Source: Arenibacter amylolyticus (GTDB taxonomy: Bacteria; Bacteroidota; Bacteroidia; Flavobacteriales; Flavobacteriaceae). Taken from it: a stretch of DNA of 64,000 bases. This document shows positions 5,956 through 52,292 of this stretch, in pieces (positions within the stretch are counted from its first letter, which is position 1; each line of letters starts with the position of its first letter). The stretch is from positions 1-64,000 of the forward strand of contig NZ_MTAZ01000020.1 in assembly GCF_002150785.1 (NCBI RefSeq), written 5' to 3'. The notes beneath the pieces were generated by a model that searched no databases, was not told the origin of the DNA, and worked only from the letters and a program-made list of their open reading frames with translations. Made by a program: the position numbers and the translations under genes.

Positions 5956-5973
5956 TTTTAAACATTGAAAAAT

Positions 5974-16681: not shown

Positions 16682-19600
16682 CTACTCCTTCAATCGATAC
16701 ATATAATAGCCCCCACCTTTATCCCAACTACAAAAGATTAGGGTCTTTTCATCCGGGGATACACCCAGCCCCCTGGGTTCCGCTCCGTCCAATTCCGGTA
16801 GCTCCAAGGTCCAGACCTGTTTCTTTTCATCATCCCTAAAATGAAAGGTGGAAGGTGAAATTCCACTAGATCGGGTAGCCACATACAACGCCCCCTTCCT
16901 CGGCACACGCAAGGCACTGCTCCCCCCGTAGGTACTGGCAATAGGCTCTTCTTCCCTATATTGCTGCCCGTCCTCACTGGTAAACACCTGTATTTTAGCG
17001 GCCCCCGGATCTGGAAAATACAGGGTAGTTCCATCAGGGCTCATGTCAAAAGTACGGGCCAAAATCCTATTCTTTAGGGATAACGTCCTTACCAAATCAA
17101 ATGTAGAAGGATCCTCATCATTCTGTCGCAACACATAATTTAAATCATCCGCAAAAAGAGACATGGCGTAAATCTCTCCTGTATCCGTTACCCTCGGCGC
17201 CGTAATGGCCCGCTGCCCAGGGGGCACCTCCCAAACGGCTATGCCCTCCCCGGTATGGGCATCTATCTTAATGAGACGTCTATTGATTCCTGCCAGGATA
17301 TGCCCATCCAAATCTACCCCCACCCCGTTCACGGGACTAAGCCTATACTCAACCCCTTTTATGGTAACCGATTGCAAAGGCGAAAAACTGGCAGACTTCC
17401 CCTCCGCGGTTCTAATCACAAACCCCTTGCTATAATTGGCCATCCAAATTTTATTACTCCCGTCCCAAACGGCACCATACCCCCCTCCGGAGGGCACTAT
17501 TTTCTCTACAAACTCGTAATTGGGCGCTACTATTTCGGCAAAATCTTCCAAGGGTTCATCAGATTTTATCAAGGCTAACTTTTGAGTGCTGCTAGTGGTA
17601 CTATTACTCCCATCCGAGCTTATCACCCTGTGGTAAAAAACCTGGGACTCTCCCTCCTTAAGAGCTTCTAAATGCTGGTACCATTTACTTTCCAAGGTTT
17701 TAAACCTAGGCTCCCTACCCGTTTGCTTTTGCCAGAGAAGTTCTTTAAAATGGGGGTCCCTTGCCAATTGATAGGTGTAGGAAACAAAATCCCCATCCTG
17801 GTCCGCCGCGGGTTTCCAGGATACCTCATACATGGTTTCCATATTTCTAATCCCATAGGTATTCTTGGATGGGTGGGAAACAATTTCAGAAGTTTCCGGT
17901 GCCCTATTTCCCGCTGGGTAGAGCTGGGTTCTATAAACCTGATCCCCAAAACGTACCACCACGTTTATTGCCCCTACCGCAAGGGCCTCCCTTAGATCCT
18001 GGTCCATCGCCAATTCCCCCTTAAAGGTGAGCAAGCCTTTTTTATTTCGCGTCACCTTTAAAGTTTTAATGGTTTCACTGGCTTCGGTATTCCTGCCCAG
18101 TCCCAAGAGAACCTCTAGTTCTTTGGGAAACCTACCTTCGGACAATGCTAATTGCCCCTCCAACAATAAAGTGTTGCCGCGGATATCCGAGGATACCTCT
18201 CCTTCCCCCATCTGGGTTGGGCCTGTCCCAGCATCGCTCACCAGCCTAAATTGCCCCTTGGCCTGTGAGAAATTAGTATCTATATCCCTACGGATGATAT
18301 GCCCATGTACCCCAAACATAGCGGAGGGATACCTAGAAGTTTCCAAAACTTCCATCTTAGAAGCATCCCTTTCCTTAATATGGTAGGTAGTGTACTCCCA
18401 TCGTTTACCTTCATCAAAGAGGTCTACAATAGTAATCGTATTTTCCGGAGCCTCATTGATCCCCAACCAAGCACGGGGCCCAGATCCCGCCGCCCCAGCA
18501 TTCAACAATTCCAATCCCCCTTTTTTACCGGGATAATAGGCATGCTGGTGCCCACTGATATACGTATGTACCTTATACTCCTCCAATAATCGTTGTAGCT
18601 TTTTGGGGTTTTCTAAGAGATTCCCTTTGGAGTCCCTTCCCTGAGCTACCCCGTATAGGGGCATATGCCCAATAACCACCCGTACGTTGGCATTTTTCGC
18701 TGCTGGAGTTTGGAACTGTTTTTCCATCCAATCCAAATTCTCTTGTGTGATTACGGATGAGGAGGCCTCCCATGAAACTATAAACACCCCGTTCTGCTCA
18801 AAGGAATAGTAGTGCGGAAAATGGGAACGATCCACAAAATTGAGTCGGGTTCTATCGATATGCTCCTCCCAAAATTTTCTGGTTGCTGTGTGTTCTATTG
18901 GGTAGGATCTAGGACCATCGTGATTGCCCACGGTAAAGGCAAAGGGAATTTCTGCCTTATCCAAGGGGTCCATGATATGTTTGTTGAATCCCGCCCACAT
19001 CTTTTGAAGCTGCACCGTATCGGACACCCCCATTCCGGCCACCATATCCCCTCCGCATAAAACTAGATCTGGTTTCCAAATACGTGGGATTCGCTGTAAA
19101 ATACTATCCACCTGCCACTCATAATCTGCCGCTCCCAAACCAGAATTTAGATCACTGATCACCGCAATCCTCAGGTCGCCACGCTGTGGAAGCTCAGGGC
19201 CATCGCCATCGGATACGAGTCGGATAGCATCTGCAGTAAACCATCCTTCCCCGCCTCCAACAATTTCAATGGCATCTCCGGCACCAAGTTGAAAGGATCC
19301 CAACACCTCCCATTTCCCGGGTTGATCTATGGATTGCTGGTTTACAGACAAAGTATCGCTACCAGCCCTGCTGTGTAACACATAATACACCTCATCCGAA
19401 TGCGTTTTATCCGAAACATACCAGACCCCTAGTTGGTACTTTTTCCTTTGTATACCCTCTAATTGGTAGATAGCCTTGTTTATATGGTTTACCGCACTAC
19501 GCCGTGCGGGACTCTGTCCGTAATAATTATTGTCCTTACTGCTTTTCCAAATTCCTACCTCGGAATAGGCAGCACTCTCGGTATCCAAAATAATGACTTC

Positions 19601-20542
19601 CCCGCGTTTCCCGGGTACTTTTTCGGATAACACCAGGGCTCCCGCATTATTTCGCAAACTATTTCTATTACCACCGGTAATATCGGTGGGAACATTCACC
19701 ACCTCGGTACTGGCTACCATGGCAGAGGAGCCACCCCCATCCAAATTAACAGCTTCTTTGGCGCCCACTCCCAATAGTAGCGCTGCCAACTCCTCTAAAG
19801 TGACCCCCACACTGGCCGCTTGGCGCCCATCTACCACCATCAACAACAACGTATGTTTATCCACATATCCTATAGCACTTCTGGGATGCCTGATTAACAG
19901 GTTTTTACCAAAGCCTTCTTCGGCCGATGTTACCTGTATCTTCCCGTTTTTTATCAATACCGGCCCGGCACCTACCGCCTGCTCCGGATTCCAAACTTCA
20001 CGCTTGGATGCTTCCTGGGGCGTAGGGTATTTCCAAAGGGTCCCCAACTCCGCAGATCCGGAAGACCACACAATTTCTGGCAGCCCATTTACCATCCCAA
20101 AGGCCCCACGGGCTACATCCCCAGTAGGCCCGGGAGCTACCGTCTTGCCATCCTGTACAATGAGACTCACGGAACGGTTGGGAGCAAAATACCCCCCATT
20201 GATTGCCAAAATTCCTCCATGCTTACGCTTTGTTTCCAAAGTGGTCTCTCTTAGGGTATTGCTCCCAATAGATCGCAGGTAGAGATTATCGTCCCGCAAA
20301 TCAACTTTTGCATAAACGGCACGTATAGGTTCACCATCCTTTAAGGTACCAGCAGCGTCATAGACCTTTACGGACTTGGGTAGCACAATATTCAGGTCTT
20401 CCCTAGGTTTCCAGTCCAATACCAACTCCTGGGAAAAGGTAGGAAGCGAAAAAGAAATGGATAGCAAAAGAAAAAGAAGGACAGGCCAAGGATTTACCCC
20501 ATAGGAAATAAAGGGGAATCTGCCCATTAGATGCGTGTTCAT
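16682..20542 (-). CDS. Exported phosphodiester glycosidase (NAGPA-like) fused to metallophosphoesterase
   Basis: A 1286-residue protein with a signal peptide ending near residue 38 (TFSQ). Residues about 55-305 form a NAGPA/DUF2233 phosphodiester glycosidase: NGGYF (115-119), RSAIG (221-225), DGR (238-240) and NLDGGGSS (266-273). Residues about 315-445 look like a golvesin/xanthan-lyase-type beta domain. Residues about 457-720 are a calcineurin-like metallophosphoesterase: GGDM, GNHD (539-542), GH (625-626) and GHQH (664-667). Its first metal motif reads DLN (464-466) where DxH is usual. The C-terminal 500 residues contain an Fn3-like part and a beta-propeller-like part. Animal NAGPA removes GlcNAc from GlcNAc-1-P-6-mannose. 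The gene stands alone on this strand between the two halves of the locus. A second ATG six codons in is possible. Confidence 0.85.
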   Translation of the reverse strand: MNTHLMGRFPFISYGVNPWPVLLFLLLSISFSLPTFSQELVLDWKPREDLNIVLPKSVKVYDAAGTLKDGEPIRAVYAKVDLRDDNLYLRSIGSNTLRETTLETKRKHGGILAINGGYFAPNRSVSLIVQDGKTVAPGPTGDVARGAFGMVNGLPEIVWSSGSAELGTLWKYPTPQEASKREVWNPEQAVGAGPVLIKNGKIQVTSAEEGFGKNLLIRHPRSAIGYVDKHTLLLMVVDGRQAASVGVTLEELAALLLGVGAKEAVNLDGGGSSAMVASTEVVNVPTDITGGNRNSLRNNAGALVLSEKVPGKRGEVIILDTESAAYSEVGIWKSSKDNNYYGQSPARRSAVNHINKAIYQLEGIQRKKYQLGVWYVSDKTHSDEVYYVLHSRAGSDTLSVNQQSIDQPGKWEVLGSFQLGAGDAIEIVGGGEGWFTADAIRLVSDGDGPELPQRGDLRIAVISDLNSGLGAADYEWQVDSILQRIPRIWKPDLVLCGGDMVAGMGVSDTVQLQKMWAGFNKHIMDPLDKAEIPFAFTVGNHDGPRSYPIEHTATRKFWEEHIDRTRLNFVDRSHFPHYYSFEQNGVFIVSWEASSSVITQENLDWMEKQFQTPAAKNANVRVVIGHMPLYGVAQGRDSKGNLLENPKKLQRLLEEYKVHTYISGHQHAYYPGKKGGLELLNAGAAGSGPRAWLGINEAPENTITIVDLFDEGKRWEYTTYHIKERDASKMEVLETSRYPSAMFGVHGHIIRRDIDTNFSQAKGQFRLVSDAGTGPTQMGEGEVSSDIRGNTLLLEGQLALSEGRFPKELEVLLGLGRNTEASETIKTLKVTRNKKGLLTFKGELAMDQDLREALAVGAINVVVRFGDQVYRTQLYPAGNRAPETSEIVSHPSKNTYGIRNMETMYEVSWKPAADQDGDFVSYTYQLARDPHFKELLWQKQTGREPRFKTLESKWYQHLEALKEGESQVFYHRVISSDGSNSTTSSTQKLALIKSDEPLEDFAEIVAPNYEFVEKIVPSGGGYGAVWDGSNKIWMANYSKGFVIRTAEGKSASFSPLQSVTIKGVEYRLSPVNGVGVDLDGHILAGINRRLIKIDAHTGEGIAVWEVPPGQRAITAPRVTDTGEIYAMSLFADDLNYVLRQNDEDPSTFDLVRTLSLKNRILARTFDMSPDGTTLYFPDPGAAKIQVFTSEDGQQYREEEPIASTYGGSSALRVPRKGALYVATRSSGISPSTFHFRDDEKKQVWTLELPELDGAEPRGLGVSPDEKTLIFCSWDKGGGYYMYRLKE

Positions 20543-21969: not shown

Positions 21970-24912
21970 ATGTTTATTAAAAAAACATCCTTACTCATCG
22001 CCTTCTGTCTGCTTTTTCAGCTCGCACAGGCGCAGGAAGACACTACAAAGACTCCTGAATTCCTAAAATACACCCATAGTTCATGGGTAGATTCCATCAT
22101 GAAATCGATGACGCCCAAAGAGCGAATTGGGCAGCTAATATGGGTGTCTGCCTACTCTAATCGGGGGCCAGAACACAGGGAAAATATCCTTCAGACCATT
22201 GAGGAATGGAACATTGGGGGATTGGTGTTTTTCCAGGGTGACCCCGTCACCCAAGTAACACTGATGAACGAATACCAAGAAGCTTCCAAAGTACCCCTAA
22301 TGGGTGCCATTGATGCCGAATGGGGACTAGGGATGCGGTTAGACAACACCATTAGCTTTCCATATCAGATGGCATTGGGAGCCATACAAAATGATGATCT
22401 CATCTATGAAATGGGGTTGGAAATGGCACATCAGATTAAAAGAGTGGGGCTACACCTCAACTTTGCACCCGTGGCCGATGTGAACAATAACCCCGATAAT
22501 CCGGTAATCAACTATCGCTCCTTTGGGGAAGATAAGTACAAGGTGGCCAAAAAGAGCATCGCCTATATGCGGGGGATGCAAGATGGTGGCCTCATCACCA
22601 CAGCCAAACATTTTCCGGGGCATGGAGATACCAATACGGATTCCCATTACGATCTCCCGCAGATTAATCATGACTTGAAACGTTTGCACGATTTGGAATT
22701 GTATCCGTTTAAGGAACTTATAAACGCCGGAATCAACGGAATGATGGTGGCTCATTTAAATATCCCTGCCCTAGATCCCTCCGGAGAACCCTCTACCCTT
22801 TCCAAAGCAATCATCACCGACCTATTACAAGAGCAGCTGGGTTTTAAAGGCTTAATCGTTACCGATGCCATGGAAATGAAAGGGGTAACCAAAGGCAATC
22901 AACCCGGGGTGGTAGATAAAAAAGCCGTTTTGGCAGGCAATGACGTTTTGGAACTTGTACAGGATGTTGCCAAAGCAGTTACTGAGATAAAAAACGCTGT
23001 AGACAAGGGCATCATTTCCCAAAAAACAGTGGATGCCAGGGTGCGTAAAATCCTAGCAGCCAAACAATGGGTAAACCTACACCAGTATCAGCCCATACCC
23101 CTCGCCAATCTCTTGGAGGACATCAACAATCCAAAGGCCTTGTTATTGGAGCGGAAACTAACGGAAGCCTCGTTAACCGTCCTAAATAACAAGGAAAACA
23201 CCCTACCCTTAAAACGCTTGGACACCCTGAAGATTATGAGTATTTCCATTGGGGCCGATAAGAAGACCAAGTTCCAGGAAACACTAAACCTTTATCAGGA
23301 GATGGACCATTATACGCTACCCACAGAGGCGAATCAAGAAGAAGTAGCGGCCATTCAAAAAGCATTTCCACAGTACAATGTAATCCTAGTGGGGGTGCAC
23401 GACAATAGCCTCAGACCCAGAAACAATATTCCATTTTCGGAATCGGTCCAAGGGTTTATTAAAACACTCCCCTATAATAAAACAGTCGTAGCCTATTTTA
23501 AAAACCCCTATTCCATTGACAAATTACCTAATTTGGAAAATGCCAAGGGCCTTATAGCTACCTATCAGGATAGCCCTTCTGCCCAAGATTTGGCAGCACA
23601 ATTAATCTTTGGTGGTGTGGGTGCCAACGGAAAGCTACCGGTTGGGATCGGCAAAAAGTATAAGGCCGGGGACGGACTAAGCGTGGAAGGCGGCATACGA
23701 TTAAAATATACCCTGCCCGAGGATGCCGGCATGGATTCTAAAACCCTTTACCAGGGAGTAGACTCCTTAATGAACCAGGCAATAAATGCCAAGGCAACCC
23801 CAGGAGCACAAATTTTAGTGGCAAAAAACGGTAAGGTAGTGCTGCACAAGGCCTACGGACACCAAAAATACAACGACACCACCAAGGTACAGCTGGGCGA
23901 CCTGTACGACCTGGCATCCGTGACCAAAATATCATCGGCCCTCCCTGCAATTATGAAACTATACGATGAGGGGAAATTTGATCTGGATAAGGGAATTGCC
24001 GACTACCTGCGTTATTTTAAAAACTCTAATAAGGCCGATGCCAATTTTAGGGAAATCCTAGCCCATCAGGCAAAATTCACCCCCTACATTACCTACTGGA
24101 AAAATACCCTAAGAAAAAATGGCAGCTATAAGTGGAGCACCATTAAAAAGGACTCCTCTGCCCGATTTCCAATAAAGATCGGCACCAATATGTGGTTGCA
24201 TCGCAACTATCAAAAGAAAATATTTAAGGCGATTAAGAAGTCGCCCCTCCTAGAGAAAGAAGAATACAAATATTCGGGCTTGCTGTTTATGCTACTACCC
24301 ACTATCATAGAGGAGATCACCCAGGAAGATTATGTGGATTATGTAAATCAGAATTTCTATGATAAGCTGGGAGCAACTACCCTGACCCATAATCCGAATC
24401 AAAAATTTGATAGCCAACGGATTGTACCCACGGAGCACGATTTTCTATTTAGACACAGACCCGTCCATGGGACCGTTCACGACGAGGGCGCTGCTATGAT
24501 GGGAGGTATCTCTGCCAATGCCGGACTCTTTTCCAATGCGAACGACTTGGCCAAATTAATGCAAATGTACCTCAATGGAGGTACGTATGGAGGCGACCAA
24601 TTTATTTCGGAGAGCACGCTAAAGGAGTTTACCAAGACTCAGTTCCCGGAGAACAATAACCATCGAGGTCTAGGCTTTAACAAACCCTTCCTAAAATACC
24701 TTGGGGAAAATAGCAGTACCGCCAAAGATGCCAGTAGCGACAGTTTTGGACATACAGGATTTACTGGAATTATGGCATGGGTAGATCCACAAGAAGAACT
24801 CTTATACCTGTTTCTCTCCAATAGGGTACTACCTACACGGGAGAATACCACACTGTATAAATTGAACACCCGTACCAATATTCAACAGCTACTGTACGAT
24901 GCCATAAAATAA
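21970..24912 (+). CDS. Exported GH3 beta-N-acetylhexosaminidase (NagZ-like) fused to a serine hydrolase domain
   Basis: A 980-residue protein with a signal peptide (cut near AQAQ, residue 22). Residues about 40-370 are a GH3 domain with the NagZ catalytic loop KHFPGHGDT (213-221), TDSH just after, and nucleophile Asp299 in VTDAMEMKG. Residues about 400-570 are a GH3 C-terminal-type region. Residues about 590-980 are a beta-lactamase/class C-type serine hydrolase: SVTK (650-653), YSG (768-770, where YxN is usual) and HTG (928-930). NagZ removes GlcNAc from muropeptides. In Bacillus subtilis a separate beta-lactamase-family amidase, AmiE, then removes the peptide from MurNAc. The fusion would do both steps in the periplasm. 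It sits between nagX and anmK. Confidence 0.92.
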   Translation: MFIKKTSLLIAFCLLFQLAQAQEDTTKTPEFLKYTHSSWVDSIMKSMTPKERIGQLIWVSAYSNRGPEHRENILQTIEEWNIGGLVFFQGDPVTQVTLMNEYQEASKVPLMGAIDAEWGLGMRLDNTISFPYQMALGAIQNDDLIYEMGLEMAHQIKRVGLHLNFAPVADVNNNPDNPVINYRSFGEDKYKVAKKSIAYMRGMQDGGLITTAKHFPGHGDTNTDSHYDLPQINHDLKRLHDLELYPFKELINAGINGMMVAHLNIPALDPSGEPSTLSKAIITDLLQEQLGFKGLIVTDAMEMKGVTKGNQPGVVDKKAVLAGNDVLELVQDVAKAVTEIKNAVDKGIISQKTVDARVRKILAAKQWVNLHQYQPIPLANLLEDINNPKALLLERKLTEASLTVLNNKENTLPLKRLDTLKIMSISIGADKKTKFQETLNLYQEMDHYTLPTEANQEEVAAIQKAFPQYNVILVGVHDNSLRPRNNIPFSESVQGFIKTLPYNKTVVAYFKNPYSIDKLPNLENAKGLIATYQDSPSAQDLAAQLIFGGVGANGKLPVGIGKKYKAGDGLSVEGGIRLKYTLPEDAGMDSKTLYQGVDSLMNQAINAKATPGAQILVAKNGKVVLHKAYGHQKYNDTTKVQLGDLYDLASVTKISSALPAIMKLYDEGKFDLDKGIADYLRYFKNSNKADANFREILAHQAKFTPYITYWKNTLRKNGSYKWSTIKKDSSARFPIKIGTNMWLHRNYQKKIFKAIKKSPLLEKEEYKYSGLLFMLLPTIIEEITQEDYVDYVNQNFYDKLGATTLTHNPNQKFDSQRIVPTEHDFLFRHRPVHGTVHDEGAAMMGGISANAGLFSNANDLAKLMQMYLNGGTYGGDQFISESTLKEFTKTQFPENNNHRGLGFNKPFLKYLGENSSTAKDASSDSFGHTGFTGIMAWVDPQEELLYLFLSNRVLPTRENTTLYKLNTRTNIQQLLYDAIK

Positions 24913-30166: not shown

Positions 30167-30195
30167 TGCCACTTTATAGCTTCTATAAAGTGGCA
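30167..30195. terminator. Hairpin after acs
   Basis: A perfect 13-bp stem (TGCCACTTTATAG at 30167-30179, complement 30183-30195) with a three-base loop lies 24 bases after the acs stop and faces the convergent transporter gene. There is no T-tract directly behind it, so its termination strength is uncertain. Confidence 0.6.
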
Positions 30196-30386
30196 CGTGC
30201 TTTCCGCTATATCTTTTTTATAGCCATAAAAAAGGATGCCGCTGCAATCACTAATGCAGTGCTTATGGCAAAAAGAAGCCGTCACTACAAAATTTAAACA
30301 CAGGACTATTCCTGGAAATTAACTTCAGAAGAAAGCTCGGAAAGACCTCTCTCACCGTCAAAAGCATCAGGCTATATAAAAGTTAT

Positions 30387-34371: not shown

Positions 34372-37263
34372 ATGATAAGACTACTGATTATATGCCTATT
34401 ACTATTTAATTTCCCTCATTTTGCCAGGGGACAAAAATTGAATAATCAAGAAATAAAAGAACTGATCCAAGCCTATAAAATGGATATTAGGGGCCCCTAT
34501 AAAGAAATTAGGTGGTTTTGTACAGATGGCAGTATTCGTATGCCCAAAGACCCTTGTCCTGCTAACATTGGCCCCGGAGTGCAGCACGCCACCTATAAAA
34601 ACTCGGTCACTGATCTTGGGAAGAGAAACCATCTATATTTTGGTCAAATTCTTTCCTATACCGATAAAGAAGCGTTCTGGGATAAGGAGAATAACCATTC
34701 CCGAATTAAGCAGTATCAGCTAGATAAATATTTAAGATCGGTAGATGATGGATGGGTGCTACAAAAAGGTCAGTATTATAGAGGGGCCATCCAGTCCGAA
34801 GACGAAGATGCCTGGGGTGTTGAATTTTATAAATGGTTGCTCTCCGATACCGATAATTTAAAAAAACATTATTTCCTTATCAGACAATCCCTAAAGGACA
34901 TACCACACCAGGGAGATGATAATTTAGCCCAAAAGATTAGAAGCGAATCCAAGGTAATTTCGGACCTAGCACCAAGCTTTATGGATTTACGGGTAAAAAT
35001 CCATAGTCAGCCCGATCTGGGCGATATCGAAAAGGTAAAAGCTTTTAAAGTAAAGCACAACGACAAGCTAAGTGCGGAGGTCAGAACAAAAATTGATGCT
35101 TTAACCCGCACCATGACTACTTTCTACCAGCCTGTAGATATTGCTGCCTTACCAAAAAGAACCTCGCTGGTCCTTGAGAAACAAATTGGCAAGGAGATAA
35201 GTACCTATGTCAATCAATTTGCCGAGGAAAAAAACACCGCCTTATTAATAGAGGCAACCGCAGAATTACTGCTTTCCATAAGACAGGCCATCATAGAGGA
35301 AGAATCTGCCGCAGCCAGATTACAATTGTTGGATGCCTCCTTAAAGCTGGAAGAAATCATTTTTAAAAAATCTCCCCAATGGCAACCCCAAGATATAAAT
35401 GGACTCCTAGACAAGGTATGTTATTTGGGAATGGCCAACGCCGGGGCAGGATATATAGAACTTGTGGAGTGGCAGCAATTAAACCTAGCTTCCAAAGGGA
35501 ACTCGCTGGGAGATCTTACCTCAACATTAGAACATGCCCGTAGGGAGGTAGAATGGAGTTCTTCCATGGTAAAGGCCAATTATCAGGAGGTCGTAGACAC
35601 CTATACAGGCTTTGAGCCCAAGGCCTATGGATATATAGATGATATCATTAGAGGATCTATAGCCCTTCATCTTGGCCAGGCAGTGGGTGATTTAGGCGAT
35701 ATCATCGCCAAAGAGTCGGCCCTCACCAATAAGGTGATGGATCTTTCCAACCAGAGTGGCTTCCGCGGATTAAATGCGGGTTATGCCTTGGGAGAATTAG
35801 TGGTTGTAAATGGATCACCCGATGAAATTGAAGTAGTTTCAGACAAGATTTATGTGTTTCAAAGACCTCCATCAGATTTAAAACCTATAGCCGGTATCGC
35901 CACGGTGTCCGAAGGAAATATGGTTTCCCATGTACAACTCCTGGCTAGAAATTTAGGTATTCCGAACGCTGCACTAGCCGATGACAACCTTAGAAACCTC
36001 TTAAAACATGATGGAAAACGTGTGTTTTATGCGGTTTCCAATAAAGGGAATGTAATTATGAAGCCCGAAGCTGATATGACCGATGAGGAGCGTGCCCTAT
36101 TTTCCAAAAAAGAACGCCGGGAAGACCGAGTGAAAGTCCCCATAGACCACATTCAATTGAAAGAAAACAATATCCTAGACCTCAAGGAAGTGGATGCAAG
36201 CGATTCGGGAAAACTCTGTGGCCCTAAAGCGGCCAATCTAGGGCAGTTAAAGAAAATGTTCCCCAACAAAGTGGTGGAAGGCCTGGTAATACCTTTTGGA
36301 ATTTTCAGATCGCATATGGATCAGAAGATGCCAGATGGAGAACTTAGCTATTGGGAGTTTTTAAACGCCATCTTTAAGGAAGCCGAGGCCCTAAGTGCTC
36401 AAGGAATCAGCCCTGGCGAGGTAGAAAACTTTCAACTGCGAAAACTGGAAGTATTAAGGGAAGAAATAAAGAAAATACCCCTGCAAGTAGAATTCCTACA
36501 GCAGTTAGAAAAAGGATTTACAGACATCCTCGGAGATAAATTGGGTGAGATCCCTGTTTTCCTCAGAAGCGACACCAATATGGAAGATCTAAAAGACTTT
36601 ACCGGGGCGGGACTAAACCTAACCATCTTCAATGTGGTAACCAAGGAAAAGATAATTGAGGGAATTAAAAATGTATGGGCCTCCCCTTATACGGAACGCA
36701 GTTATAAATGGAGACAAAAATTCCTGCTCAATCCAGAAAATGTATTCCCGTCCATATTGGTCATCCCCAGTGTAGACGTGGATTATTCTGGGGTCTTAAT
36801 TACCAAGGGAATCAATTCTGGTAGCCCCCAAGATTTAACGGTTGCCTTTAGCCGAGGTGCTGGGGGTGCAGTAGACGGGCAATCTGCAGAAACCTATGAG
36901 ATTTATGCCGCTGGAGGAACCCAATTACTAGCTCCTGCTAGGGAACCCTACCACAACAGACTGCCGGCAAGCGGTGGCTTGGAAAAGAACGTAGCTACCT
37001 TTGAAAGCTTTATTCTTAACCATCAAAATATTAAGGACATTAGAGACCTGGCAAAATCTATTAGAGAAACTATGCCTAGAGAAACCACCGCTGATAATGA
37101 AGCGGTCTATGACGTAGAATTAGGCTTCCAAAATAATAAGTTATGGTTGTTCCAGATTAGACCATTTGTGGAAAATAAAAGAGCCCAGAGCTCCGAATAT
37201 CTGGAATCCATTTCCCCGAAAATAAATCTGGCCAAGAAAATTAACCTCTCACAAAAATTATAA
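34372..37263 (+). CDS. Exported PEP/pyruvate-binding dikinase-like protein
   Basis: A 963-residue protein with an N-terminal signal peptide (hydrophobic 1-15, FARG end near residue 20). Residues 20-440 are a mostly helical region without a family I recognise. A PEP-utiliser phosphohistidine domain follows (GIATVSEGNMVSHVQLLARN, His520). Last comes a PPDK N-terminal ATP-grasp region from about residue 610 (GPKAANLGQL; LRSDTNMEDL near 731-740, with Arg732; GAVDGQSAE near 832). This order, phosphohistidine before ATP-grasp, is that of glucan water dikinases rather than PPDK or PpsA. No PEP/pyruvate TIM barrel is visible. Export of an ATP-using enzyme is unexpected. The gene is one base ahead of a serine hydrolase gene. 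Confidence 0.75.
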   Translation: MIRLLIICLLLFNFPHFARGQKLNNQEIKELIQAYKMDIRGPYKEIRWFCTDGSIRMPKDPCPANIGPGVQHATYKNSVTDLGKRNHLYFGQILSYTDKEAFWDKENNHSRIKQYQLDKYLRSVDDGWVLQKGQYYRGAIQSEDEDAWGVEFYKWLLSDTDNLKKHYFLIRQSLKDIPHQGDDNLAQKIRSESKVISDLAPSFMDLRVKIHSQPDLGDIEKVKAFKVKHNDKLSAEVRTKIDALTRTMTTFYQPVDIAALPKRTSLVLEKQIGKEISTYVNQFAEEKNTALLIEATAELLLSIRQAIIEEESAAARLQLLDASLKLEEIIFKKSPQWQPQDINGLLDKVCYLGMANAGAGYIELVEWQQLNLASKGNSLGDLTSTLEHARREVEWSSSMVKANYQEVVDTYTGFEPKAYGYIDDIIRGSIALHLGQAVGDLGDIIAKESALTNKVMDLSNQSGFRGLNAGYALGELVVVNGSPDEIEVVSDKIYVFQRPPSDLKPIAGIATVSEGNMVSHVQLLARNLGIPNAALADDNLRNLLKHDGKRVFYAVSNKGNVIMKPEADMTDEERALFSKKERREDRVKVPIDHIQLKENNILDLKEVDASDSGKLCGPKAANLGQLKKMFPNKVVEGLVIPFGIFRSHMDQKMPDGELSYWEFLNAIFKEAEALSAQGISPGEVENFQLRKLEVLREEIKKIPLQVEFLQQLEKGFTDILGDKLGEIPVFLRSDTNMEDLKDFTGAGLNLTIFNVVTKEKIIEGIKNVWASPYTERSYKWRQKFLLNPENVFPSILVIPSVDVDYSGVLITKGINSGSPQDLTVAFSRGAGGAVDGQSAETYEIYAAGGTQLLAPAREPYHNRLPASGGLEKNVATFESFILNHQNIKDIRDLAKSIRETMPRETTADNEAVYDVELGFQNNKLWLFQIRPFVENKRAQSSEYLESISPKINLAKKINLSQKL

Positions 37264-37264
37264 G

Positions 37265-38524
37265 ATGCGAAAATATCTAATATACACCCTTCTAATACTG
37301 AGCTGTACAGCCTTTACCGTGGTTTACTATTACCCTATTGACGGATATCTACGTACCGGTATAAAGCGCTTAAAGTACTTAGAACTGGTTAAAAGCGGGG
37401 AAATAAAATTGAATGCGCCACTTCCAAAAGGGGCTTTTAAGTCTTATGAGGATATAGAGCTTAACCTTCTCCCAAAAAAGAACGACAGCCTAGGGGCACT
37501 ATTAACTATAGATGAAAATTTTCAGAAAGAGATCAATGGACTGTTCAAAGGCTTGGATAAAAGTTATTCCCTTGCGATACTGGATATTTCCGACCTAAAT
37601 CAGATTCGCTATGCCAAACGAAATGAGACTGCGGGCTATCAACCAGGAAGCGTAGGGAAACTGGCCGTATTGGTGGCATTATTTGACCAATTGGCAAAAA
37701 TCTATCCCGATTCGTTCGAAAAACGCATCCAACTTTTGCGCTCAAAATCTGTAAAAGCAGGAGTTTGGGGCCTTACCGATTCACATACCGTTCCCATTTA
37801 TAATGTTGAGACCAATAAACTTATTAAAAGACAGGTGGTGGCCAGCGACGTTTTTACCTTGTTTGAATGGGCAGACCACATGCTTTCTGTTAGCAATAAT
37901 GGCGCCGCTAGCATTGTATGGCGGGAAGCCTTACTTATGTCGGCCTTCGGACAGGCATACCCAGACCTCAGCCAGGAAGAGGCAGATGCCTACTTTAACA
38001 ACACGCCTAGAAAACAGCTCACAGACTTATCCAACGATATTGTAAACCTGCCTTTGCGCAGCTTGAATATTGGTGCGGATGAATGGCGCCTGGGAAGTTT
38101 TTTCACTTCTGGAGCCAACAAATATGTAGGCGATAAAGGGGGGAGTATAGGATCTACTTTGGGATTGATGAAGTTTCTAATCCAATTAGAACAAGGGAAC
38201 GTCATAGATGAGGCCTCTAGTTTAGAAATGAAGCGATTGATGTATATGACGGATCGTAGGATCCGATATGCACAATCCCCTGCCCTAAAAGAAGCAGCGG
38301 TTTATTTTAAATCGGGGAGTTTGTACCAATGTAACAAGACCAGTGGCGAACCTTGTGGAAAATATATGGGGAACATCAGTAATTTCATGAATTCGGTAGC
38401 CATTATTGAGCATCCGGACAACTGTACGTATATGGTGGTACTAATGACCAATGTATTGCGAAAAAATTCGGCCACAGACCATATGACCTTGGCCAGTAGT
38501 ATCGATAAAATAATTAAGAAGTAG
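37265..38524 (+). CDS. Membrane-anchored class A beta-lactamase-like serine hydrolase (dikinase partner)
   Basis: A 419-residue protein with an N-terminal hydrophobic segment (residues 5-23). Its penicillin-recognising fold carries SVGK (129-132, nucleophile Ser), SNN (210-212) and KSG (349-351). This matches the SxxK, SxN and KTG motifs of class A enzymes, but the protein is long for a true beta-lactamase. A Cys pair (CNKTSGEPC, near 356-364) may form a disulfide. It begins one base after the dikinase-like stop, so the two are translated together. Its 3' end overlaps the convergent translocase-like gene by 11 bases. A role on envelope peptides or esters is possible; drug resistance is not implied. 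Confidence 0.8.
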   Translation: MRKYLIYTLLILSCTAFTVVYYYPIDGYLRTGIKRLKYLELVKSGEIKLNAPLPKGAFKSYEDIELNLLPKKNDSLGALLTIDENFQKEINGLFKGLDKSYSLAILDISDLNQIRYAKRNETAGYQPGSVGKLAVLVALFDQLAKIYPDSFEKRIQLLRSKSVKAGVWGLTDSHTVPIYNVETNKLIKRQVVASDVFTLFEWADHMLSVSNNGAASIVWREALLMSAFGQAYPDLSQEEADAYFNNTPRKQLTDLSNDIVNLPLRSLNIGADEWRLGSFFTSGANKYVGDKGGSIGSTLGLMKFLIQLEQGNVIDEASSLEMKRLMYMTDRRIRYAQSPALKEAAVYFKSGSLYQCNKTSGEPCGKYMGNISNFMNSVAIIEHPDNCTYMVVLMTNVLRKNSATDHMTLASSIDKIIKK

Positions 38525-41360
38525 GATTTTTCAAGGATTCTAGGATTTCGGCAGCCTTGTTCCGCACTTTTTCATGAGAGTCTTTCAAAGCCATTTCCAA
38601 TAAGGAATTAAACTTAGGATCATTAATTTTTTGGATCAAATAAAGTACCGCCAGCCGCAACTTAACATCCTTTCTTTTTAAAAGGGCATAATAACATTCA
38701 GATTCACTAAGGACCTTTATATTGAGGTCCTTTAGTTTTTTTTCGGAAAATGTTTCTACAAGGGTCGATTCGGCCACGGGAATCAATTCTTTTTTAAGTT
38801 GAATATCCAGGATGTTATCTAAAAATTCGATGGCATGTATCCGTTGTTCCTCCTTTCCGTGCAAGATGGAATTTAGGATGGGGTCTACGTCTTGCGGGGG
38901 ATATTTTATGCCCAAAAATTGAAAAATTCGCTGTAACTGCCTATCCAATCGCAACTCCAACAAATGTATCAATCCGTTTCTAGCATCGTTTTCTTCGCGA
39001 GATTCCGGGGTTTCCGTATTTCTTTTGTACCGAATAATGATCTGGGAATGAATTACAGAGAGGGTGTTCTGGTAAAGGTGACATTCGTCCAATATTCTAT
39101 CCACTACAAATCGGTCGTTCACCTTTAGATGTGGATACTTCCACTTCAACCTTTTTAAGGCCTCAATAGCTTCAATTTTCACCGTATGCTCCAATTCCCC
39201 AGTTAATTTTATCAGGGTGTTCACAGCCTTTTGCGAGGCAAATTTTTCCAATACCAATACTACTACCGCTGCATCTTCTAAATCTAACCCATGGTCCGTA
39301 GCTATCTTATCGAACAAAATATCGATGATAGGCTCTCCATAGAAAAACAAGGCTTCTATGCTGGCTTTCCTCGTTTCCTTTCCTGATAATTTAGGGATAA
39401 TTAGCGTTATAAACCGTTCGTCTAAGGTTTTTGATGCAGCTAGGATGGCGGTATTAGCCACCGCTGTGTTGTCCGACTCTATATGGGTGTTAATTACCTC
39501 ATAGAACTTTTCTACCTTGGCATTCCCAATAGCTTCCAAAATAGCCTGAGTTTTATTAGTTTTCTCCTGTTCGTCACTTAAAAACGCAAGTTGGAATAGG
39601 GCATTTTCTATACGGCTCTCCAAACTAAAACGAGCTTGCAACAACGCATTGTTCCTCAATTCTAAAGACAAACCAATCAAAGCGGCATTTGCAATGGTAT
39701 GATCGTCCATATTGAGATAGGTATCAAAAAGCTGAACTTGATCCTTGTCGTAGTTTTTAAGGAGATAACGGAACGCAGAGGTAGTTACCTGTTGATCTTT
39801 ATCCAACACCATTCCTTGCATCGGTTCGCATAAATTTTGAGAATTAAGAAAGTACAGATTTTCTATAGCCAGTGCCCTCACCTTGGCAGAAGGACTATCT
39901 AGCAGGTTTTTAATGGCATTAAAGAAACGTTCATCCTTTACTTCCAAGGTTTTATGGAGCATGTGTAGTATTTGATTTTCCGATCCATTGGTCAGCACCC
40001 GGATAACCGTATCTATTATGGAAGTGACCTTTATTTCATTCCTGTCTCTTTTTTGCTTTTTTACCCCAGATTGCTCCAGCAATCCCTTAAATGCAACTAT
40101 ATATTCCCTTCTCAGGTGAAAAATGAAATACAGCCATATAGATATTAGCCCAATAATGATTAAGCTGATGTAGGTTGAGGGAATTTGAAGCGCGTTGATA
40201 AAGAAAATCAGGATAAAGCCCGCCAAACCCGTTGCAATACTATCTACCACTACATCTGTAAAGGTTTTGGTCTTCTTTTTAATTTCTATAGGGATGGGTA
40301 TGGAAAGAAGCTCGGTTGCCGCCTTGTTAACGGATTGCTTTAAACTCCCGTCCACTATTTTAATGAATACCACTACCCATAGCTGGGGAAGCAGCAATAA
40401 TAAGATAGATCCTATTAATATACCCGTTGGCAACCACAATAAGGACTTCCCTACCCCAAAGGTCCCCACAATCCGTTTGGTAAGGAATAATTGTATCAAT
40501 AGGGAGATGACACTGAGCGTGGAAAACCAAAAACCAAAAAATGAAGTCAGCGCCTCCTGGTCTTGTATAAATCTTGAGGCATAATCACTATACTGGTAAT
40601 CTACCAACTTAGCAATCAATACACTAATGCCCACCACCAGAGCAATTAAGCTTAATAATTTGGATTGTTTAATGAGCTTAAAAGGAGACTCGCCCTTAGG
40701 ACCGGATCTTCCCGAAACTTGGAAAGGATTTAATTTCACCACTTCCTTCCTCCAAATGTACCGGGTAATGGGTAGGCAGCACAACAGCAAGCCTGCCGCA
40801 ACAAATAGCAAGTTCTCTGTATAGAGAATCTTGGTCAGCAAAGAGGTTAAATATCCTCCAAAAATTCCGCCCGCTATTGCCCCGGCCCCAATAAAACCAA
40901 AAACCCGTTTGGCCTCACGGACATTGTATACTAAATTGGCCATTATCCAAAACTGCGAGGCAGTTAGCAGGCCAAATATCGCAACCCATACATAGGGTAT
41001 GTACAGGATAAATCCACTAGCCAGGTTAAAACTAAATGCAATACCAAATAGCACCAATGAGATAACCGACCCAATTATGGTCCTATCCACGATAGTATTA
41101 AGGGCATACTTTTCCATGGCGCGGTCATAAAAAAATGAGCCTGTAATCGCCATAATGGCCGTTAACACATACCCAAGGGGAAGTGCACTGGAAGAGAGTT
41201 CTGAGAGAAATAAGGAGTTGATAGTTGGTTTTACAATCAATAAAACCGTTATGATAAGGAAGATATTCAACTGCAGCAGCAGCGTTTTGGTCAATTCCTC
41301 CTCCTTTAGATCAAATGCTTTTAATATATATGTTTTAATCAGGGATAACAGGTAGTTCAA
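38514..41360 (-). CDS. Nucleotide-translocase/MFS-like membrane protein with HEAT-repeat tail
   Basis: A 948-residue protein. Residues about 20-425 hold around 12 hydrophobic helices. Segments such as FWIMANLVYNVREAKRVFGF and GAGAIAGGIFGGYLTSLL resemble the ADP/ATP-translocase (Npt/TLC) and related MFS families. Residues about 430-948 are soluble, helical and repetitive, with HEAT-like units (SAKVRALAIENLYFL; HTVKIEAIEALKRL; HEKVRNKAAEILESL at the very end). HEAT tails usually bind partners. It is the second gene of a leftward pair behind another serine hydrolase gene, 119 bases away, and its stop overlaps the end of the convergent serine hydrolase. The nucleotide substrate is a guess from family resemblance only. 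Confidence 0.7.
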   Translation of the reverse strand: MNYLLSLIKTYILKAFDLKEEELTKTLLLQLNIFLIITVLLIVKPTINSLFLSELSSSALPLGYVLTAIMAITGSFFYDRAMEKYALNTIVDRTIIGSVISLVLFGIAFSFNLASGFILYIPYVWVAIFGLLTASQFWIMANLVYNVREAKRVFGFIGAGAIAGGIFGGYLTSLLTKILYTENLLFVAAGLLLCCLPITRYIWRKEVVKLNPFQVSGRSGPKGESPFKLIKQSKLLSLIALVVGISVLIAKLVDYQYSDYASRFIQDQEALTSFFGFWFSTLSVISLLIQLFLTKRIVGTFGVGKSLLWLPTGILIGSILLLLLPQLWVVVFIKIVDGSLKQSVNKAATELLSIPIPIEIKKKTKTFTDVVVDSIATGLAGFILIFFINALQIPSTYISLIIIGLISIWLYFIFHLRREYIVAFKGLLEQSGVKKQKRDRNEIKVTSIIDTVIRVLTNGSENQILHMLHKTLEVKDERFFNAIKNLLDSPSAKVRALAIENLYFLNSQNLCEPMQGMVLDKDQQVTTSAFRYLLKNYDKDQVQLFDTYLNMDDHTIANAALIGLSLELRNNALLQARFSLESRIENALFQLAFLSDEQEKTNKTQAILEAIGNAKVEKFYEVINTHIESDNTAVANTAILAASKTLDERFITLIIPKLSGKETRKASIEALFFYGEPIIDILFDKIATDHGLDLEDAAVVVLVLEKFASQKAVNTLIKLTGELEHTVKIEAIEALKRLKWKYPHLKVNDRFVVDRILDECHLYQNTLSVIHSQIIIRYKRNTETPESREENDARNGLIHLLELRLDRQLQRIFQFLGIKYPPQDVDPILNSILHGKEEQRIHAIEFLDNILDIQLKKELIPVAESTLVETFSEKKLKDLNIKVLSESECYYALLKRKDVKLRLAVLYLIQKINDPKFNSLLEMALKDSHEKVRNKAAEILESLKNPTS

Positions 41361-41479
41361 TTGCTATGCTTTAGGTGAAAATTAGTGGTCCGTTATAATA
41401 TCAAGCCTAAGCTAATTTAAAAAATTAAGACCTAAAACTGCCATGCTACCCAATCCAATTTTGGATAGTCTCCCAAGAC

Positions 41480-42400
41480 TTAATTATTGGCCACTTGGTT
41501 ACGACCAACCCTCAACACTTTTTCTATAGGTTTCACCAATTCCCGAATAATTTGCTCTCCCGAGGCATCATCTACCAAAGCAACCAAAATATAACGCCTA
41601 TTTGGGTTTTTTCCCCATACTAGTACCGAGTCTGAATGAAAATCCCTCCAAGATCCCGATTTTCGATACAGCCTGGCACTGGGCGCAATAACGTCTAAGG
41701 TATTTACAAATTTATGATGCAATTCAGGATCGCTCATAATATCTAACATTTGCTTGGATCTAGCCCTATTTACCAATTGTCCATTTGCCAATAAATAATA
41801 ATAACGACAAACCTGATTCACCGTAGCAGCATGGGATAGATTTTTTAGGGGCTCCCTATTGGTATCTCCCCCACCGCCATAGCGCTTTCCTACCCAGAGT
41901 CCGCCTCCAAGGTCCTCGTTATAAAACCTATATCTGGGGTCTGTCATAACAGCCTGGATTTTATCATAACCCAATCTATCTATCATCCTGGTAGAAGCTG
42001 CGTTACTAGATTTACTGATCATAATACGCATATCCTCTTGAATGGCCGGACTATCGGTAAGCTCTCCTTTTTCCAAAGCATCCATGGAAGATAATAAAAT
42101 GGCTATTTTGGGTAAGCTTGCCGCATACATCATATGATTTCCATTAATACTAGCAAATTTCACCTGTTCCGGATTCTTTAAATCCACCAAGCCTACGGCC
42201 ATTTTCTTGTTTTTCATCAATGCCTTCCACTTGGGATTGGACATAAGTTCACGTTCCAAACTTTGTTGCAGACTGGTGCTCGACAAGCTTGCCAATGGTT
42301 TTACCTCAGAGTTTATTGTTCTGATGGGCAGGTCTTTTTGAGCCTGTAAACCGGTTGCAAATAAGAAGGTGAGTATAATTAGATTAAACTTGTTTCCCAT
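41480..42400 (-). CDS. Exported class A beta-lactamase-like serine hydrolase (translocase partner)
   Basis: A 306-residue protein with a signal peptide (cut near QAQ, residue 21) and the three active-site motifs SLPK (95-98), SSN (131-133) and KSG (247-249). Its length is that of true class A beta-lactamases. The usual omega-loop glutamate signature ExxLN is not obvious, so it is more likely a peptidase or esterase of that fold. It is transcribed leftward ahead of the translocase-like gene. The parallel serine hydrolase beside the dikinase-like gene suggests that the two pairs belong together. Confidence 0.8.
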   Translation of the reverse strand: MGNKFNLIILTFLFATGLQAQKDLPIRTINSEVKPLASLSSTSLQQSLERELMSNPKWKALMKNKKMAVGLVDLKNPEQVKFASINGNHMMYAASLPKIAILLSSMDALEKGELTDSPAIQEDMRIMISKSSNAASTRMIDRLGYDKIQAVMTDPRYRFYNEDLGGGLWVGKRYGGGGDTNREPLKNLSHAATVNQVCRYYYLLANGQLVNRARSKQMLDIMSDPELHHKFVNTLDVIAPSARLYRKSGSWRDFHSDSVLVWGKNPNRRYILVALVDDASGEQIIRELVKPIEKVLRVGRNQVANN

Positions 42401-50558: not shown

Positions 50559-52292
50559 ATGAACGGAACACAGTGGATTATTTTTATTTTGATCATTCAA
50601 ATAGTGCATTTCCTCGGAACTTGGAAATTGTACGTTAAGGCAGGTAGAAAAGCATGGGAAGCAGCTATCCCAGTTTATAACGCCATAGTTTTAATGAAAA
50701 TAATTAATAGGCCCAAGTGGTGGGTTATTCTGTTGTTTATACCCATCATTAACCTATTGATGTTCCCTGTGGTTTGGGTAGAGACCCTTAGGAGTTTTGG
50801 TAAAAATAGCCTTTTAGACACCTGGTTGGCTATTCTCACCTTGGGGCTCTATATCTATTATGTAAATTATTTCACGGAGGTTGCCTATGTAGAAAATAGA
50901 GACCTTCACCCAAAAACCGCCTTAGGAGAGTGGGTAAGCTCCATCGTATTTGCCGTTGTGGCCGCTACTTTGGTACACACTTATGTAATACAACCCTATG
51001 TGATCCCTACCAGTTCTTTGGAAAAAACCCTTTTGGTGGGCGATTTCCTATTTGTAAGCAAGTTCCATTACGGAGCTAGGGTTCCTATGACGACCGTTGC
51101 GGCACCCATGGTACACGATACCCTGCCTATTCTAAAATCCAGATCCTATGTGGCCGATGTAGATCCTGCTACCTATAAAACCTCGATATGGAACAAACTA
51201 CAGCTTCCCTATATGAGACTACCTGGATTTAAGGAGATTAAAAGGAATGAAATTGTAGTGTTTAGCTGGCCTGCAGATACGGTTTATCAATTTTTTAAAC
51301 AACAGGAAGGGGTTCGCAAGCCTATCGATAAAAAATCTAATTACGTAAAACGTGCTGTAGGTATACCAGGGGATTCCTTATCTATAGTTGACGGATATGT
51401 ACATATCAACGGTAAAAAAACCGTACTGCCCTACAGGGCTAAGCCAATGTTCACCCACACGGTTACTGTAGAGAACGGTTTTTCTAATGCCGCCATTGAC
51501 CTCTTGGGAAGACAAAATTTCTCAGGAAATGTGGTCCGCATCCCTAACAGTTCTTTAGAGTTGGAAAATCTAGACCAAGTAATCTCTGCAATGCATATGG
51601 AGAAAATAAAGTCCGACTCAGCCTATACCTACTACTCCGGGAATGTAGACAATGCAAGGGTTCGCGACTACTTAAAGTCGGAAGACGTAAGCACTATGGC
51701 TCTTTTTAACTTAACAGAGGAAGAAGCCAAGAATTTCACTGGAAAAAATGGTATAGTATCCATTCAGAAACTTGCGTTTACCACCAAAAAAACCTCTCTT
51801 TTCCCCCAAGATCCAGCGCATCCAGCAACCTTAGACAATATGCCAGCGATCTATATCCCTGAAAAAGGCAAGACGGTAGAACTTAACCTAGAAGTACTCC
51901 CCATTTATGAGAAAATAATAAAGGAGTACGAGGATAACACCCTAAAAGTAAATGGCAATCAAATACTGATTAATGGACAAGTAGCCAACTCCTATACTTT
52001 TAAACAGGATTATTATTGGATGATGGGAGACAATAGGCACCGTTCCGAAGACAGTAGAACTTGGGGCTACGTTCCAGAAGACCATATAGTAGGTACGCCC
52101 GTTTTTATATGGATGAGCATCGATGGCATTAACGATGGCATGATGAATTGGAAAATTCGTTGGGACAGAGTGTTTACTACGGTCCACGGAGACGGGGAAC
52201 CTACCTCCTACTTTAAGTACTTCTTAATAGCACTTGCGGGGTGGTTTGTTTGGGATTACTTTAGAAAGCGAAAAAAGAAGGTGAAAAAATAG
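50559..52292 (+). CDS. lepB: Signal peptidase I, long Bacteroidota form
   Basis: A 577-residue membrane protein, about twice the usual size. Residues 1-110 contain three or four hydrophobic helices homologous to a DUF5684-like region. A further helix at about 125-140 precedes the peptidase core with the nucleophile motif PTSSLEKTLLVGD (Ser153), catalytic Lys264 in YVKRAVGIPGD, and the late motif MMGDNRHRSEDSRTWGYV. Between core motifs lies a long insertion (about residues 290-490), usual in this phylum. It ends in a C-terminal helix and a Lys-rich tail. It removes signal peptides from exported proteins. Confidence 0.94.
   Translation: MNGTQWIIFILIIQIVHFLGTWKLYVKAGRKAWEAAIPVYNAIVLMKIINRPKWWVILLFIPIINLLMFPVVWVETLRSFGKNSLLDTWLAILTLGLYIYYVNYFTEVAYVENRDLHPKTALGEWVSSIVFAVVAATLVHTYVIQPYVIPTSSLEKTLLVGDFLFVSKFHYGARVPMTTVAAPMVHDTLPILKSRSYVADVDPATYKTSIWNKLQLPYMRLPGFKEIKRNEIVVFSWPADTVYQFFKQQEGVRKPIDKKSNYVKRAVGIPGDSLSIVDGYVHINGKKTVLPYRAKPMFTHTVTVENGFSNAAIDLLGRQNFSGNVVRIPNSSLELENLDQVISAMHMEKIKSDSAYTYYSGNVDNARVRDYLKSEDVSTMALFNLTEEEAKNFTGKNGIVSIQKLAFTTKKTSLFPQDPAHPATLDNMPAIYIPEKGKTVELNLEVLPIYEKIIKEYEDNTLKVNGNQILINGQVANSYTFKQDYYWMMGDNRHRSEDSRTWGYVPEDHIVGTPVFIWMSIDGINDGMMNWKIRWDRVFTTVHGDGEPTSYFKYFLIALAGWFVWDYFRKRKKKVKK

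Follow-up and report, generated by a model that had tools for sequence, protein, structure and literature searches.

A conserved four-gene cluster of Bacteroidota combining a predicted exported dikinase and two serine hydrolases with an NTT-family carrier

A stretch of 64,000 nucleotides of Arenibacter amylolyticus (contig NZ_MTAZ01000020.1 of RefSeq assembly GCF_002150785.1, positions 1 to 64,000 of the forward strand), referred to below as the window, was analyzed, and a cluster of four genes spanning positions 34372-42400 is described here. According to the open reading frame (ORF) calls in the window, two forward genes, D and H1, converge on two reverse genes, T and H2, in the order D>H1> <T<H2. 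D (34372-37263, + strand) encodes a predicted exported dikinase of 963 amino acids and is separated by 1 base from H1 (37265-38524, + strand), which encodes a class A-type serine hydrolase of 419 amino acids that is predicted to be exported or membrane-anchored. T (38514-41360, - strand) starts at a TTG codon and encodes a carrier of 948 amino acids that belongs to the NTT family (ATP/ADP translocators) and ends in a HEAT tail. H2 (41480-42400, - strand) encodes a predicted exported class A-type serine hydrolase of 306 amino acids. The 3' ends of H1 and T overlap convergently by 11 bases (38514-38524). The four ORFs, the convergent pairs and the overlap lie where an earlier note on this DNA had placed them, and its family identities were recovered by Pfam (PPDK_N in D, Beta-lactamase2 in H1 and H2, TLC and HEAT_2 in T).

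The layout was found in 27 of 32 cluster-bearing genomes and, complete, in all six loci obtained with a protein pattern scan of named genomes; because it recurs in this way, it exceeds chance. In the five remaining genomes, T is reversed (G122), T is missing between H1 and H2 (G239 and G255), the cluster is interrupted by contig ends (G120), or D, H1, H2 and T are located at four distant places (G235). The exact 11-base overlap is not conserved across clusters, the 3' ends of H1 and T overlapping by 4-15 bases at 10 of 18 measured loci and being separated by 1-107 bases at the other 8. The pattern scan, which detects close relatives only, returned Flagellimonas/Allomuricauda/Muricauda, one Saprospiraceae and one Bacteroidales assembly; no locus outside Bacteroidota was found with it, and all six confirmed loci are from this phylum. 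Two further families were also searched. They contributed G451, which has all four genes, G458, which lacks T, and G465, where D and H1 lie at one contig end and part of T lies at a different one. The total of 41 clusters used below is the sum of the 32 genomes, the six scan loci and these three genomes, and the 32 and the six may overlap.

Full-length D, T, H1 and H2 were each found in the identical 20 of 60 relatives' genomes, with one cluster-type copy apiece, and the other 40 contained no cluster-form D, H1 or H2. The further D matches among the 60 belong to other dikinase proteins and are partial, and the sole additional T match (G034) was weak and left the HEAT part uncovered. In a sample of 395 Bacteroidota genomes, which overlaps with the first (G000, the window's genome, and G018 at least), the profiles of the D N-terminal domain and of H1 matched the same 13 genomes. 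The H2 profile matched 25 genomes, with E <= 4.1e-98 in those 13 but no better than 7.7e-6 to 6e-4 in the other 12, so that full-length H2 is limited to the genomes holding the D N-terminal domain and H1. The T profile matched 55 of the 395, and cluster-type T was present in 11 of the 13 genomes with D, H1 and H2. Across 35 genomes, the pairwise distances of D, H1 and H2 are correlated with one another (r 0.94-0.97) and with those of T (0.86-0.88). The earlier note had proposed that the four genes belong together, and rare co-occurrence in other genomes had been set beforehand as the observation that would speak against it; the counts of 20 of 60 for all four genes and of the same 13 of 395 for D, H1 and H2 are clearly the opposite, and it is close to certain that the four genes are one functional unit.

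It could be argued that the genes merely travel together as neighbours, without a shared pathway. A compact layout favours joint gain and loss, and an empty site compatible with such an event is present in G015, a congener given as 100% complete that has none of the four genes: 352 bases lie there between an MFS gene and udk, the place occupied in G009 by the four-gene block. (The window has two additional genes on the MFS side of the block relative to G009.) This reading is nevertheless hardly credible, as G235 keeps the four genes at distant places, G122 keeps them with T reversed, the flanks differ between lineages, and the D N-terminal domain and H1 occur in identical genome sets. In 29 stretches taken from diverse genomes, the flanking genes vary between lineages and D, H1, H2 and T are the only families present in more than 6 stretches.

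D begins with a predicted Sec signal peptide (residues 1-20, 34372-34431, + strand). Directly after it comes Q21, in agreement with the Bacteroidetes Q-rule, by which a Gln after the cleavage site is expected for signal peptidase I substrates (PMC5837995). Q21 is kept in 37 of 38 aligned D proteins and the N-terminus is hydrophobic in 36 of 38; in G239 the start of D had been placed inside the signal. These features are consistent with the earlier description of D as an exported protein. Residues 21-460 (34432-35751, + strand) make up an N-terminal domain specific to D, in which C50 and C62 are invariant (38/38) and whose profile is selective for cluster D proteins (13 of 395 genomes). No convincing Pfam family was found for these residues in the window D or in the seven members scanned, and the domain is presumed to be the acceptor-binding part. 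It is followed by a mobile phosphohistidine domain (approximately 470-565, 35779-36066, + strand), with the codon of H520 at 35929-35931, and by an ATP-grasp domain (approximately 598-935, 36163-37176, + strand) delimited from the PPDK_N match and a low-confidence structural alignment. PPDK_N was matched with E 7.3e-25 at residues 615-943, and the mobile His domain (PEP-utilizers, 504-541) was matched ahead of it with 15.8 bits, below the cut-off of 23.1. Both families were matched in all seven D members, PEP-utilizers with a best E of 0.0015. H520, K619, R732, E738, D739, E916, Q928 and R930 are invariant in 38 of 38 D proteins, which leaves the dikinase catalytic His and the ATP-grasp residues intact.

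The His domain of D therefore precedes the ATP-grasp domain. Against 8a8e, residues 690-850 of D pair with 110-271 and residues 465-534 with 382-456, which is the reversed order, although the second segment is weak alone (i-Evalue 17). D shares an ATP-grasp domain and a catalytic His with phosphoenolpyruvate (PEP) synthase, pyruvate phosphate dikinase, rifampin phosphotransferase and HpeHI but differs from them in this order and in that no PEP/pyruvate barrel was found in Pfam scans. No NCBIfam dikinase model reaches its cut-off in D. The predicted model of the whole protein is usable in the ATP-grasp domain only and is too poor to name the fold of the N-terminal domain. Within that low-confidence model, the ATP-grasp domain was aligned by VIA-align with rifampin phosphotransferase (Z 19.8 over 185 residues), PEP synthase (19.4) and HpeI (17.8), and Foldseek likewise returned dikinases for it. 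For the helical part (approximately 262-474), nothing but designed and repeat-like helical proteins was matched (Z <= 9), which was read as no information. For HpeHI, a related enzyme, an essential conserved His, AMP as the main product and a dikinase mechanism are described in PMC12167813, and by analogy a dikinase mechanism is expected for D.

In domain order, D resembles plant enzymes. In glucan, water dikinase (GWD) the His domain precedes the ATP-grasp domain, which carries an RSxxNxED-type motif, and D has both this order and a motif of this type; compared with GWD and PWD, D is bacterial, exported and provided with another N-terminal domain. The module might on these grounds phosphorylate a periplasmic or captured glycan, as GWD phosphorylates alpha-glucan in plants. 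The GWD phosphohistidine model PF22973 was matched in four of seven D members, and the next genes in G255 encode a glycogen debranching enzyme and a GH63-like protein. The best E for PF22973, however, was 0.15, which is within chance, the starch-binding (CBM45-type) modules of GWD are absent from the N-terminal half of D (no carbohydrate-binding family in Pfam at E <= 1), the other scanned neighbours have no carbohydrate theme, and two beta-lactamase-fold enzymes would be left without a role. A glycan target of this kind is considered improbable.

H1 and H2 matched Beta-lactamase2 (PF13354) with E values of 1.4e-7 and 6.5e-18, respectively, and the family was also matched in seven of seven members of each. 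The class A active-site motifs S-x-x-K, S-x-N and K-S-G are complete in both. In H1 they are formed by S129 and K132, S210 and N212, and K349, S350 and G351, and in H2 by S95-x-x-K98, S131-x-N133 and K247-S-G; all seven residues are kept in 38 of 38 proteins of each gene. A candidate deacylating Glu (equivalent of position 166), assigned by motif position only, is E273 in 35 of 38 H1, and E or D is present at position 183 in 38 of 38 H2. N-termini are hydrophobic in all 38 H1 and all 38 H2. The earlier assignment of both proteins as serine hydrolases agrees with these motifs. The two share fold family and motifs with class A beta-lactamases and differ from them in being divergent paralogues tied to a dikinase, and no NCBIfam beta-lactamase model reaches its cut-off in H1 or H2.

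The presence of two Beta-lactamase2 proteins, together with rifampin phosphotransferase as the best alignment of the D ATP-grasp domain, would also fit an antibiotic-inactivation island in which a periplasmic relative of that phosphotransferase acts beside two beta-lactamases. PEP synthase and HpeI, however, align nearly as well (Z 19.4 and 17.8), the domain order of D is different and a rifamycin-binding domain was not found. The sets are chromosomal and have an old, parallel descent, plasmids were unmatched by H1 or the D N-terminal domain, and the resistance models all remained below their cut-offs. Such an island is very improbable.

T consists of an NTT-type MFS carrier domain (residues 1-430, 40071-41360, - strand) and a HEAT-repeat tail (residues 431-948, 38514-40070, - strand). 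The window T was matched by the TLC ATP/ADP transporter family with 32.5 bits (cut-off 21), by HEAT_2 with E 5.9e-18 and by MFS_1 with 31.3 bits, below its cut-off of 33.4; HEAT_2 was matched in seven of seven T members. When a profile of residues 1-430 was compared with 177,635 PDB sequences, two matched at E <= 1, and both were ADP/ATP carriers (7e-11 and 4.1e-9). The predicted structure (mean predicted local distance difference test score, pLDDT, 66.2; predicted template modeling score, pTM, 0.68) contains approximately 12 predicted membrane helices, because of which the HEAT tail is probably on the cytosolic side. The top five Foldseek matches were five NTT entries, with template modeling scores of 0.51-0.77 by query length, and the next MFS matches had 0.65; the lead of the NTTs over VMAT and NorA was modest, with E 3.3e-7 for the fifth NTT and 7.5e-7 for the next match. 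Both its sequence and its fold make T an NTT. An ordinary MFS carrier, the alternative foreseen by the earlier note, is rejected on the PDB profile search, in which only ADP/ATP carriers appeared at E <= 1, and on the five NTTs heading the Foldseek matches. The closest solved structures by sequence and predicted fold are AtNTT1 and Chlamydia pneumoniae NTT1, from which T differs in an identity of 18-20% or less and in the partial loss of charged residues.

NTT-HEAT fusions are a known type of protein, to which Major et al. (2017, PMC5381601) could assign no function. T resembles them in having an NTT membrane domain followed by C-terminal HEAT repeats, but the cluster T proteins form a clade (support 0.916) that excludes the remaining NTT-HEAT proteins of the phylum, are tied to three predicted exported enzymes and have lost charged residues. 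At positions 47-48 in transmembrane helix 1 (TM1), R-D is present in 10 of 10 other full-length NTT-HEAT proteins, whereas all 35 cluster T proteins are uncharged at 47 and have N or S at 48. At position 349 in TM10, directly before Glu 350, R is present in 10 of 10 others and an uncharged residue in 35 of 35 cluster T proteins. K44, E350, K365 and D369 are retained in 35 of 35. In the T profile alignment, the TM1 place is occupied by K-D in both AtNTT1 and C. pneumoniae NTT1, and K-E or T-E is found near the TM10 place, so that the loss in TM1 is clearer than that in TM10. NTTs encoded outside the cluster in G239 and G255 are included in the T counts of the alignment from which the 38 D, H1 and H2 proteins were scored but were excluded from the 35 cluster T proteins compared here, the non-cluster loci of G248, G319, G180, G081 and G192 were left out of the alignment, and G120, with a split gene, counts as a gap. 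Four distant NTT-like proteins were kept separate from the ten: that of G239 has R-D and R, that of G412 a gap in TM1 and R in TM10, and those of G152 and G356 neither. If the TM1 and TM10 residues are determinants of transport, their loss could mean another cargo or another coupling. The earlier note suggested that T could feed D if it exports nucleotides; for T as an ordinary ATP/ADP exporter this is unsupported, since the basic-Asp pair and the basic residue are lost and T is missing in 3 of the 41 clusters.

At L200 and L205 (G009 and G012), the entire T gene also appears to have been exchanged, the rest of the cluster being parallel. T of these genomes is 44% identical to the window T and groups with the T proteins of Flagellimonas/Allomuricauda (support 0.999), whereas their D, H1 and H2 are 71-77% identical to those of the window and group with the window's genus (support 0.88 for D, 0.89 for H2 and 0.57 for H1). 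Because T is exchangeable and is not present in every cluster, D, H1 and H2 constitute the core of the unit. Beside these NTT-HEAT genes of the clusters, a single-domain NTT-like gene was observed to adjoin an NTT-HEAT gene outside the cluster in G255 (L179, 5880-10256, - strand), and a similar pair is present in G251 and G400.

The best explanation of the four genes, which is held tentatively, is a self-contained envelope phosphotransfer pathway. D would be exported by Sec, its ATP-grasp domain would load a phosphoryl group from ATP onto H520 with release of AMP and phosphate, and the swinging His domain would hand this group, outside the cytoplasm, to an acceptor held by the N-terminal domain. 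H1 and H2, as exported acyl-enzyme serine hydrolases, would make, trim or release the acceptor or the phosphorylated product. T, as a specialised carrier in the inner membrane, would serve the pathway by transporting a nucleotide or a related anion, whether ATP outwards, AMP inwards or the product, and its cytosolic HEAT tail would bind partners. Co-inheritance, the export signals, the complete active sites and the family of T are shown; the activity of D outside the cytoplasm, the acceptor, the cargo of T, the substrates of H1 and H2 and the order of these steps are what we infer. A more specific form, in which T is a reworked translocator that exports nucleotide or swaps ATP for AMP and so powers the exported D, with H1 and H2 preparing and releasing a phosphorylated envelope molecule, is rather doubtful.

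Several observations weigh against the proposed pathway. T is its weak link: it may not carry ATP, because the charged residues of related NTT-HEAT proteins are lost, and it is present in 38 of the 41 clusters and absent from those of G239, G255 and G458; given the altered charges and the three absences, it might instead carry the acceptor or the product. Pfam is split on T, TLC being matched in three and MFS_1 in five of seven members at E <= 0.01. The full predicted model of D is poor (mean pLDDT 48.8). The correlated distances are also predicted by shared vertical descent. No acceptor is indicated, and the neighbouring genes are without a common theme. Another NTT is encoded elsewhere in each of the three T-less genomes, but one is also present in the clusterless congener G457, so that these proteins are uninformative as stand-ins for T.

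The machine could accordingly consist of D, H1 and H2, with T as an accessory carrier of acceptor or product and D using ATP already outside the inner membrane, whether leaked or scavenged. Besides the three T-less clusters and the charge loss, the exchange of T in G009 and G012 fits this arrangement, as does the measurement of periplasmic ATP in Escherichia coli, whose route there is called unclear in PMC7432876. An accessory T is nevertheless somewhat unlikely, given that T accompanies 38 of the 41 clusters, including the scattered set of G235, and that its slot in G009 and G012 was refilled rather than lost.

Phosphorylation is usually confined to the cytoplasm because ATP is located there. 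If the phosphotransfer pathway is correct, the cluster would provide dedicated ATP-powered phosphorylation outside the cytoplasm of a free-living bacterium and a first physiological role for the NTT-HEAT proteins of free-living bacteria, and the acceptor of D would be a new target molecule to find. By uniting a predicted exported dikinase with a relative of the ATP/ADP translocators, the cassette makes testable both the role of NTT-HEAT fusions in free-living bacteria, a gap noted in PMC5381601, and how ATP could reach the periplasm, a gap noted in PMC7432876. Each of the four families is known. No known kind of system brings together an exported dikinase, a pair of acyl-enzymes and a carrier of the NTT type. 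No description of this gene set was found in the open-access literature, in agreement with the earlier note, which knew of no described system with this composition.

Proteins with the domain order and catalytic residues of D and with N-terminal export signals were also found outside the cluster, at L220 (2297-6235, - strand, G056), L221 (2667-6602, + strand, G043), L222 (2665-4566, + strand, G035) and L223 (3016-5523, + strand, G059). Of the three scanned by Pfam (L221 being outside the scan), two, L220 and L223, have a C-terminal sorting domain for type IX secretion. H1, H2 and T were not found within the 6.7-8.0 kb fetched around these genes. Export of this enzyme type is not a one-gene quirk, since exported proteins with a His domain followed by an ATP-grasp domain occur elsewhere in the phylum, and because L220-L223 share these features with D, extracytoplasmic dikinases may be commoner in Bacteroidota than the cluster alone suggests.

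A fifth conserved gene was sought around the clusters, and no further family was present in more than 6 of the 29 fetched stretches. The most frequent extra family is loose, its members being linked for the most part by histidine-kinase domains. Directly before D, a sensor-type gene is located in L031 (8637-9791, + strand), L032 (8673-9782, + strand), L034 (8671-9825, + strand) and L188 (4581-5600, + strand); in L181 such a gene is separated from D by one more gene, and in L198 the gene before D encodes a histidine kinase (5108-6628, - strand). The sensor proteins of L031, L032 and L034 are orthologous and those of L188 and L198 are not close, and these genes were treated as lineage-specific. 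Among 28 scanned neighbouring genes, including two NTT proteins from elsewhere in T-less genomes, no common theme was found. The Bacteroidota promoter pattern had no match upstream of D or H2, and a defence-system search yielded nothing beyond a weak match to HEAT and a single match at E 0.0057.

Other features were recorded elsewhere in the window. A protein of 1286 amino acids (16682-20542, - strand) combines a phosphodiester glycosidase (NAGPA), a Golvesin_C domain and a calcineurin-like phosphoesterase, and a protein of 980 amino acids (21970-24912, + strand) is a glycosyl hydrolase family 3 domain fused to a beta-lactamase-type domain (PF00144). A Flavo-1 RNA was detected at 30189-30274 (- strand) with 54 bits, the gathering score being 42. 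At 50559-52292 (+ strand), a protein of 577 amino acids joins a signal peptidase I (S26) and a DUF5684 domain.

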